Positions 8,184-46,217 of a stretch of DNA of 59,624 nt are shown one piece after another. Positions within the stretch are counted from its first letter, which is position 1, and every line of letters starts with the position of its first letter. Where the stretch lies: the NCBI GenBank assembly GCA_015494715.1, contig WGAT01000050.1, positions 1 to 59,624 on the forward strand, in the 5' to 3' direction. The notes under the pieces were generated by a model. The model was given only the letters and a program-made list of their open reading frames with translations, was not told where the DNA came from and did no database searches. Made by a program: the position numbers and the translations under genes. Source of the stretch: Campylobacterota bacterium (GTDB taxonomy: Bacteria > Campylobacterota > Campylobacteria > Campylobacterales > Nitratiruptoraceae).

Positions 8184-8343
8184 GTCTTTGGCCAACGCTA
8201 CATTAATTTTTTAAAAATGAATTAATATTAAGCTAGTTTATTCTTTATGTATAACATATACAATATATGTATAACTATACAATAGTAAAATTAGAGTGGA
8301 ATTAAATTTTATTATAAGAGTAGGTTTTTAAAACGTTCAGGAG
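8184..8343. other. AT-rich intergenic spacer between the acidic-protein gene and tRNA-Glu
   Basis: This 160-bp gap lies downstream of two convergent genes. It holds an AT-only inverted repeat (8202-8208 with 8220-8226) that could end transcription weakly, and the tandem repeat array described separately at 8246-8284. I see no ORF with a ribosome-binding site. Its base composition is far more AT-rich than the flanking genes. Confidence 0.6.
8246..8284. repeat. Tandem repeat made of two GTATA/TATAC palindromes
   Basis: Two copies of a 19-20-bp unit in direct tandem (8246-8265 and 8266-8284); the second lacks one A. Each unit contains an inverted repeat: GTATA-ACA-TATAC at 8249-8261 and GTATA-AC-TATAC at 8269-8280. 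The palindromes begin 20 bp apart, about two helical turns, which is the geometry of a double operator. No promoter with a downstream gene is obvious on either side, so it may instead be a remnant or a structured RNA 3' end. Confidence 0.6.
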
Positions 8344-8418
8344 TGGCGACCCCAGGGGGACTCGAACCCCCGTCACCGCCGTGAAAGGGCGGTGTCCTAA
8401 CCGCTAGACGATGGGGCC
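8344..8418 (-). tRNA. tRNA-Glu (UUC)
   Basis: A 75-nt cloverleaf on the minus strand including an encoded CCA (8344-8346 as TGG on plus). The acceptor stem is GGCCCCA paired with TGGGGTC (one G-U pair). The anticodon stem CCGCC/GGCGG encloses the loop with TTC, giving Glu. The T-arm has the standard GGTTCGAGTCC. The D-arm contains the TCTAGCGGTTAGGA form typical of bacterial tRNA-Glu. It stands alone rather than in an rRNA or tRNA cluster. Confidence 0.97.
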
Positions 8419-8482
8419 GTCTTGATTGGTTTGTGTGAGTGAAATGATAGCAAAAAATACTTAAAATATCTTTAGGATGCCT

Positions 8483-44485: not shown

Positions 44486-45301
44486 ATGACAAAAGGGTGT
44501 ATGGAGCGGGTCATCTCTTTTTTTACGGCAACTACGGGGATTACTTTTGAGAGAAAAAGAGAGGTTTTCATAGATAAGGTTTTGGATGTGATGCGCCAAA
44601 GAAATCTTCAAGAGTGCGAGGAGCTCTATTTTCACCTTCTCAATAAAGAGAGGTTGTACTATGCCTTGCTCGAAGAGCTGCTGGTTTCGCAAAGTTTTTT
44701 TTATAGGGAAAGAGTTGATATCGATATTTTGATAGAGTTTTTGCGACAAAGAGGAGGGGCTCGTATCTCTTTGCTCTCTTTGCCTTGTGCCAATGGGGAG
44801 GAGCCTTATACCATTGCCATGGAGTTGATAGAGCAAGGGATAGAAAATTTTAATATTTTAGCGATGGACCTCAATCCTAAAGCTATCCAAAGGGCGAAAG
44901 CCGGATATTATCAAGCACGGGATCTACGCAATGTCCCCCCCTCGATTTTAGCCAAATATTTTCATAAAAGTGGGGAGTGGTATGAGATTAAAGAGCAGGT
45001 AAAACAAAAGGTTACGTTTGTGTGTGGTAATCTTTTTGAGCACAAAGAGACCCCTTTTGTTTTTGATGCTATTTTTTGTAAAAATCTTTTTATCTATTTG
45101 GACGATTCGTATAAGATGAAAGCCTTACATATTTTTAGCCGTTGGCTCAAAAATGAGGGGTTGCTCTTTTTGAGTTTTTCAGACTACTTCAAAGCACATC
45201 CTTGTTTTGATAGAATTTCAAACGAGTACCGCTCAATCTATAAAAAAGTGGGATGCACTCAACTACCTTCCCACAAACTAGGAGGTTTGGAGGTATGCTA
45301 A
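44486..45301 (+). CDS. cheR: CheR-type protein-glutamate methyltransferase
   Basis: Methylates glutamates on chemoreceptors with SAM for adaptation. The 271-residue protein has an N-terminal all-alpha domain (about 1-65), the substrate-proximal SQSFFYRE (about 72-79), the SAM motif LSLPCANGEEPYTIAMEL (about 96-113), ILAMDLNPKAIQRAKAGYY (about 124-142) and FDAIFCKNLFIYLD (about 190-203). Length fits CheR. It directly follows a NIT chemoreceptor; no CheB methylesterase lies next to it. I start at ATG 44486, one base after the receptor stop; the frame upstream overlaps the receptor gene. After its stop comes a structured 253-bp intergenic region. Confidence 0.94.
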   Translation: MTKGCMERVISFFTATTGITFERKREVFIDKVLDVMRQRNLQECEELYFHLLNKERLYYALLEELLVSQSFFYRERVDIDILIEFLRQRGGARISLLSLPCANGEEPYTIAMELIEQGIENFNILAMDLNPKAIQRAKAGYYQARDLRNVPPSILAKYFHKSGEWYEIKEQVKQKVTFVCGNLFEHKETPFVFDAIFCKNLFIYLDDSYKMKALHIFSRWLKNEGLLFLSFSDYFKAHPCFDRISNEYRSIYKKVGCTQLPSHKLGGLEVC

Positions 45302-45302
45302 G

Positions 45303-45463
45303 CGACTAAATTGCTTAGCCTTAACCTCTGTGGATGGTTGACGCACCCGTAAAGGGTAGCATAAAGAGCTTCGAGCGCATTTCGCAGCCCGTTGCCTTGC
45401 TCCTCCAATTAGTATCGACGGATAAAGAGTGTTGATAGACGGCAAAGCCGCTCCGCCGATAGT
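45303..45463 (-). ncRNA. Candidate structured minus-strand RNA (about 160 nt) between cheR and queC
   Basis: On the minus strand a TATAAT (45470-45475) would start a transcript near 45463. The RNA could form several hairpins: a 9-bp stem 45461-45453 with 45421-45413, enclosing a GCGGC/GCCGT hairpin; a GAGC/GCTC stem around 45405-45367; ACCC/GGGT with a 5-nt loop; and GCTAAGC/GCTTAGC at the 3' side (about 45298-45320). In the first two stems a G-U pair holds on the minus strand where the plus strand would have A-C mismatches, so the minus strand is the better folder. I recognise no Rfam family: 6S, SRP, tmRNA and RNase P signatures are absent. It could also be a decayed transposon end. Confidence 0.4.
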
Positions 45464-45469
45464 AGTTGT

Positions 45470-45475
45470 ATTATA
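45470..45475 (-). promoter_or_regulatory. -10 box of the candidate minus-strand RNA
   Basis: TATAAT on the minus strand. The overlapping plus-strand sequence (TATTAT at 45469-45474) could serve as a -10 for queC, so this is another possible divergent promoter pair with shared bases. Confidence 0.4.
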
Positions 45476-45481
45476 TCAAAT

Positions 45482-45554
45482 TCTACGAAAGGAGATAAGT
45501 AGGCGCTTTTCTCCCCGCCTTAGGAGGCAGGTTTGCGAGCGCTGAAACTTACTG
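45482..45554 (+). promoter_or_regulatory. Structured 5' leader of queC
   Basis: The 70-nt leader can pair GCCT (45517-45520) or CTCC (45511-45514) with the Shine-Dalgarno core AGGAGG (45522-45527), hiding it; AGTAGGCGCT (about 45498-45507) can pair with AGCGCT (45538-45543) and TACT (45550-45553). There is no ribosome-binding site directly before the queC ATG. A TTG at 45533 is 5 nt after AGGAGG and opens a 20-residue ORF to 45595 that overlaps the queC start. Either a coupled leader peptide or a folded riboswitch-like element is possible. It does not match the preQ1-I consensus. Confidence 0.35.
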
Positions 45555-46217
45555 ATGAAAAAAGCCGTCTGTATTTTAAGTGGAGGAATGGATAGCGCCG
45601 TCGCTTCGTATATCGCCAAAAAAGATGGGTATGAGATCGTAGCGCTCCATTTCAATTATGGCCAGCGTACAGAAGCAAAAGAGTTAGAGGCTTTTCGAGC
45701 TATTGCAAAAAGCCTAGATGCCAAAACTTATGCGATCGATCTGCCTTTTTTCAAACAGATTGGGGCTTCGGCGCTTGTAGATGAGAGTATCGCAGTACCC
45801 ACAGATGGAATTAAACCGGGTATTCCTATCACCTACGTCCCTTTTCGCAACGGGATATTTTTGAGCATCGCTGCAGCCATTGCGGAAAAGGAGGGAGCCG
45901 GGGCTATCTATATCGGCGTGGTGGAAGAAGATAGTAGCGGTTATCCAGATTGTAGGGAAGATTTTATACGAAAAATGCAAGAGGCGATCAATGCGGGCAC
46001 GAAGCCAGAAACTATTATAGGGATAAAAACACCCCTCATCCATCTCAAAAAGGAGGATATTGTTGAGGTGGGAGCCAAACTTGGCGTACCTCTGGAGCTG
46101 ACTTGGAGCTGCTACCAAGATAATGAGAGAGCGTGCGGCGTATGCGATAGTTGCCGCTTGCGTCTCAAAGGTTTTGAAAAAGCGGGACTGGAGGACAAAA
46201 TCCCCTATCGCTCATAA
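45555..46217 (+). CDS. queC: 7-cyano-7-deazaguanine synthase
   Basis: Makes preQ0 from 7-carboxy-7-deazaguanine with ammonia and ATP, for queuosine in tRNA. The 220-residue protein has the PP-loop [11 protein letters not shown] (about 7-17), [18 protein letters not shown] (about 95-112) and a C-terminal Zn site: Cys in ELTWSCYQ, then CGVCDSC. All four Cys are present. It starts at ATG 45555, confirmed by the family N-terminus [11 protein letters not shown]. The other queuosine genes are not in this window. It overlaps the convergent permease gene by 6 nt. The unusual leader is described separately. Confidence 0.96.

Follow-up and report, generated by a model that had tools for sequence, protein, structure and literature searches.

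The gap between cheR and queC in the window (59,624 nucleotides from a Nitratiruptoraceae genome, contig WGAT01000050.1) holds one of the copies of a dispersed mobile element and not a unique intergenic RNA. Positions 45258-45554 almost certainly represent a PATE/MITE-like copy, without tnpB, of a TnpB element of the IS200/IS605 group. The joint explanation that we favour, and consider probable, is that the element inserted directly 5' of the queC ATG and retained its scaffold, from which a guide RNA usable by TnpB in trans could be made. An apparent new RNA thereby becomes a case of known biology, and candidate non-coding RNAs in gaps should be checked for copies of mobile elements before covariation tests are run.

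The sequence-only reading had proposed a novel, structured minus-strand RNA at 45303-45475, in what it took for the largest non-coding gap in the window. That span was too narrow, the homologous unit being 45258-45554, and among the gaps between ORFs of 80 aa or more this one, with 253 bp, ranks second in size, after a gap (8184-8476) that contains a tRNA. The following features were assigned:

44486 to 45301, plus strand: cheR ORF (CheR Pfam match)
45555 to 46217, plus strand: queC (QueC Pfam and NCBIfam matches), its ATG directly adjoining the element
45258 to 45554, minus strand (tnpB sense): whole element, 297 bp, with little doubt a tnpB-less PATE/MITE-like derivative (repeat copies and empty sites)
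45555 to 45559, minus strand: transposon-adjacent motif (TAM) TTCAT, reverse complement of the queC start ATGAA (empty sites, most left-end flanks)
45469 to 45554, minus strand: left end (LE), with a hairpin at 45502-45507/45538-45543 and a conserved AAAGGAG (plus strand, 45488-45494)
45470 to 45475, minus strand: TATAAT, matching in sequence comparison the TATAAT that overlaps the tnpB start in full-length copies
45399 to 45468, strand not assigned: internal segment of about 70 bp, present only in the window copy and the tnpB-less copies C9, C72 and C46
45301 to 45399, minus strand: tnpB C-terminal remnant (residues 405-437, 76% identity in sequence comparison), lacking a start codon
45258 to 45398, minus strand: right end, consisting of the tnpB 3' part and RE, predicted wRNA/reRNA scaffold (R1 covariance model, DNA identity)
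45297 to 45319, minus strand: hairpin GCTAAGC/GCTTAGC, with shorter GCTA..TAGC variants in other copies
45266 to 45285, minus strand: RE terminal hairpin, imperfect in the window copy (CCTCCTAGTTTGTGGGAAGG versus CCTCCCCGTTTACGGGGAGG)
45238 to 45257, minus strand: expected guide segment TGCATCCCACTTTTTTATAG, the 20 nt that follow RE and are complementary to the cheR end (by analogy with ISDra2)

Copies and TnpB-bearing relatives

With positions 45290-45560 as query, BLASTN detected another, nearly complete copy in the window's own genome (81% identity, E = 1.3e-64), along with many further partial copies. Among the 60 relatives searched, clear copies were obtained in three, all of the same genus (E < 1e-20 in G015 and G004, 1.3e-6 in G014); the G015 and G004 records are Nitratiruptor MAGs of two other species. 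Two terminal modules recur among the copies. On contigs G015:C139 and G004:C68, with about 1.3 kb between them, they bracket an intact minus-strand ORF of 437 aa, which scores 176.5 bits against NF040570 guided_TnpB (cut-off 100) and passes the Pfam models OrfB_IS605 (PF01385) and Cas12f1-like_TNB (PF07282). On these profile matches, the full-length relatives of the element encode TnpB, as is expected of the IS200/IS605 group; subterminal hairpins, likewise expected of this group, are present at both LE and RE. Between the window and the TnpB-bearing copies, the right-end module is 79-85% identical at the DNA level.

Besides the window copy, at least four others in the same genome (C9, C72, C46, C98) lack tnpB, so that both ends are retained and the transposon genes gone at several loci, which is the PATE/MITE-like arrangement. 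C98 is another short copy, located between a TolC-like and a membrane-fusion-like gene (names from translations only). For the internal segment of about 70 bp, no match was found in the TnpB-bearing full-length copy tested, nor was a source found. The genome also contains pieces of TnpB of the element's family, the longest covering residues 30-437 at 89% identity; the tnpB-bearing copies of this genome, including the one with this longest piece, end at contig edges. A second repeat, TATATCCACCTCCTGAAAGAGGTGG.., is contained in the C46 copy; in C23 it directly adjoins the left end (L018, ~1180-1250; L026, from ~290).

The PATE layout is already on record, and the element belongs to this known kind: a PATE-like IS605 derivative of Halanaerobium hydrogeniformans consists of the last 58 nt of tnpB and a complete RE (PMC7290912). 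The two agree in their size class (about 271 bp in H. hydrogeniformans), short LE, lack of tnpA, and combination of tnpB end and RE. They differ in that the former occurs as one copy, and its host genome has 22 tnpA-carrying IS605 elements, whereas here we find at least five tnpB-less copies in one genome, four of them with the non-tnpB segment of about 70 bp, and insertion at start codons.

Empty sites and insertion point

The window locus is empty in the sister species G004 (..AAAAAAGTGGGATGTC|ATGAAAAGAGCC..) and G009 (..AAAAAAGTGGAGTGTG|ATGAAAAGAGCC..) at the position of the window element. Empty counterparts were also obtained for the C9 copy, in G009, and for the G004:C68 copy, in G000, G009, G010 and G012; both of these insertions are located exactly before an ATG. 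Ahead of TCAAC, the filled sites of the window and G004:C68 are one base longer than every empty site in the comparison, and that of C9 is one base longer than the single empty site that matches it closely; the element was therefore taken as 45258-45554. Its ends, LE at 45554 and RE at 45258, are thus placed to about 1 nt by the empty sites of the sister species, and in an extended comparison the homology among copies begins at window position 45259 and extends to the queC start. In the window, the insertion lies directly 5' of the queC ATG, after minus-strand TTCAT. The empty sites at the three loci reveal no target duplication and a short fixed motif adjacent to the element, and insertion of this type agrees with IS200/IS605.

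The motif next to LE is mostly TTCAT, with a few cases of CTCAT, GTCAT or others ending in AT. The motif accounts for the orientation of the copies: LE mostly follows TTCAT, the reverse complement of ATGAA. At 13 of 14 left ends, an ORF of 110 aa or more has its ATG 5-11 nt beyond the conserved LE core, the sole exception adjoining another repeat. As a baseline, 3 of the 113 ATGAA sites in the window are predicted gene starts; with restriction to sites that break no gene, and with small start-call errors allowed, this becomes 7/15, against which 13/14 gives P ~4e-4, a value to be read with the small size of this baseline and the incomplete independence of the copies in mind. A TAM equal to ATGAA in reverse complement, combined with the loss of gene-breaking insertions, accounts for the placement at start codons. 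The unusual points of the family are this position exactly before start codons and the spread of scaffold-only copies. A literature search found no paper that links TnpB to TTCAT or to start codons, and a prior report may still exist.

At its other end, the element overlaps the 3' end of the called cheR ORF by 44 bp (45258-45301), and in the sister species G004 and G009 the cheR homology stops at residue 259. By this comparison, the window cheR codons from 45258 onward are element-supplied, and part of the predicted CheR C-terminus is transposon-derived. The earlier suggestion that the region could affect the end of cheR is borne out in the sense that the last codons of cheR have been replaced by the element.

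Folding, strand and state of the scaffold

The minus-strand TATAAT was confirmed at 45475-45470, and the sequence that follows it can fold. For the 173-nt minus strand the folding energy is -51.8 kcal/mol (z -2.30; 5/200 shuffles as good), and 159 nt of a full-length copy reach z -5.89 (0/200). Minus-strand specificity, previously proposed on the basis of G-U pairs, was not upheld, as the plus strand folds as well or better: the 141-nt core of the window copy yields z -3.43 (plus) versus -2.35 (minus), and three better-preserved copies -7.2, -6.1 and -5.3 (plus) versus -6.3, -5.6 and -2.8 (minus). With both strands able to fold, choosing the strand by folding was ruled out, and the count of 48 G-U versus 24 A-C is biased, the structure having been derived from the minus-strand fold. 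The minus strand is instead assigned to the RNA because of the orientation of tnpB in the relatives; given this orientation, a structured minus-strand RNA at 45398-45258 is plausible.

Over 14 copies, 92.0% of the cells are paired, versus 37-46% in slid controls. Changes on both sides occur in 4 pairs, within the range of the shuffles, and covariation is weak. As one of these same sequences supplied the structure, the pairing result supports retention more than covariation. The combination of a tnpB 3' end with RE sequence and of pairing kept in 14 copies is what is expected of a wRNA/reRNA scaffold. As the orthologous cheR–queC regions are empty, a covariation test on these could not work, and the paralogous copies are the right comparison.

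An Rfam scan of the gap gave no family at gathering score, in agreement with the initial impression, gained by eye, that none of the abundant RNA families matches, and nothing useful at a relaxed E-value; full-length copies had sub-threshold matches only. Sub-threshold matches to HEARO, sot0042 and HgcC were rejected because they fall on the opposite strand or lie largely beyond the element. A consensus scan for sigma-70-like promoters on the minus strand yielded no convincing candidate.

The window scaffold scores 132.8 bits (E 1.1e-30) with the R1 covariance model, whose training set includes the window row. The tnpB-linked copies C12, C14, C28, G015:C139 and G004:C68 score 151-166 bits, those of the window's own genome 157-163 versus the 132.8 of the window copy, and among the copies of that genome only C72 and a fragment on its C68 do not exceed the latter. 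The top score of all (170.3 bits; z -6.30) belongs to C9, which itself lacks tnpB; scaffold decay and loss of tnpB are therefore separable. The window copy is partly decayed, namely in the terminal RE hairpin and in one scaffold stem, and the first base of its RE is C, versus G in the other 13 right-end copies. In G014, a 98% complete genome, four scaffold matches (L127, L131, L134, L138) are orphan scaffolds, with no TnpB of the element's family at E 1e-10.

Possible guide RNA and alternative explanations

In ISDra2 of Deinococcus radiodurans, the reRNA comprises the tnpB 3' end and RE, with the last ~16 nt from the flank; guiding by the RE flank and TAM-adjacent cutting have been shown, and cutting of the donor joint has been proposed (PMC8612924). 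The present family shares a predicted RNA region formed by the tnpB 3' end and RE, a presumed guide from the flank and a short adjacent TAM. It differs in the TAM itself (TTGAT in ISDra2, mostly TTCAT here), in a Gly at the position of the RuvC-II Glu, in the missing zinc-ribbon Cys and in the deletion of tnpB from the window copy. By analogy, a transcript starting at the left end and running in tnpB sense would contain the scaffold 45398-45258 and end in a flank-derived guide (45257-45238) inside cheR. TnpB from other copies in the genome could load this RNA in trans and, once the element has been excised or when another chromosome enters the cell, cut the empty cheR–queC site, which is recognized by TTCAT and the guide match; the element would then be restored by repair that uses the filled copy. 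If scaffold-only copies are served in this way, a non-autonomous element could gain TnpB-driven retention without encoding a nuclease. In a search of five genomes, the guide matched its own site, the empty site of G004 (2/20 mismatches) and three places with 2-3 mismatches. Mobilisation would require a Y1 TnpA in trans. The three Y1 TnpA genes of the genome (L036, L037, L038) sit in another IS200/IS605-type IS, whose ends (CCCGCCGTAAAGCCCC..) have no DNA similarity to the element, and a transposase matching the ends of the element was not identified among them.

That the window copy itself makes a functional guide RNA is doubtful, because this copy is partly decayed. It has roughly an even chance of being an inert relic, with no RNA function and with only passive effects, i.e. 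a changed CheR tail and a longer queC leader. The hairpin mismatches, the deviating first base of RE, the low model score and the outcome of the promoter scan agree with such a relic, whereas most of the scaffold and the TATAAT have been retained, and the state of C9 illustrates that loss of tnpB alone does not entail decay. At the other extreme, the tnpB-less copies might be dispersed guide-RNA genes, each located at a start codon with a guide to the start of that gene, and programming TnpB in trans (or, in G014, another partner) for multi-site retention or regulation; we consider this unlikely.

An action in cis, in which AAAGGAG and the hairpin of LE would provide a ribosome site for the downstream start, or a three-way junction at the cheR end would stabilise or end the cheR mRNA, is improbable too, if less so than such a network of guide-RNA genes. 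AAAGGAG is present in 13/13 left ends examined, 57-64 nt upstream of the ATG, the window fold brings it to 4 nt from the ATG, and the plus strand folds well. Yet in most of the 13 copies the folded SD-ATG distance is not below that of shuffles, such that bridging of SD and ATG by the hairpin is not supported as a general property, and no terminator-like site was found. The original proposal of a novel stand-alone RNA with a function of its own draws on the foldability of the 173-nt minus strand and the lack of an Rfam match; with tnpB-bearing relatives of what is a mobile-element copy, and with the same locus empty in sister species, it is extremely improbable. What stands of it is a structured minus-strand element; it is neither a new class nor stand-alone nor fixed at cheR–queC, given the empty sites and the copies before many other genes. 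We thus retain the tnpB-less element with a scaffold usable in trans as the preferred explanation.

TnpB protein of the family

In the family TnpB, the canonical RuvC-II Glu is replaced by Gly298 (IVLGDFSG), which aligns to the Glu of a solved relative, and the zinc-ribbon Cys are missing. TnpBs of the family with Gly at RuvC-II were observed at L009 (1502-2815, minus strand) and L010 (1509-2822, minus strand). E345 precedes the position of the first zinc-finger Cys by six residues (EESYTSKA). An alternative RuvC-II glutamate has been described for Fanzor-related TnpBs (PMC10711439), and E345 would agree with this alternative catalytic position. The family shares with these TnpBs the position of E345 and the absence of the canonical Glu, and differs from them in its RuvC-I motif, which is DFG and not DPG, and in its host, Nitratiruptor and not a cyanobacterium.
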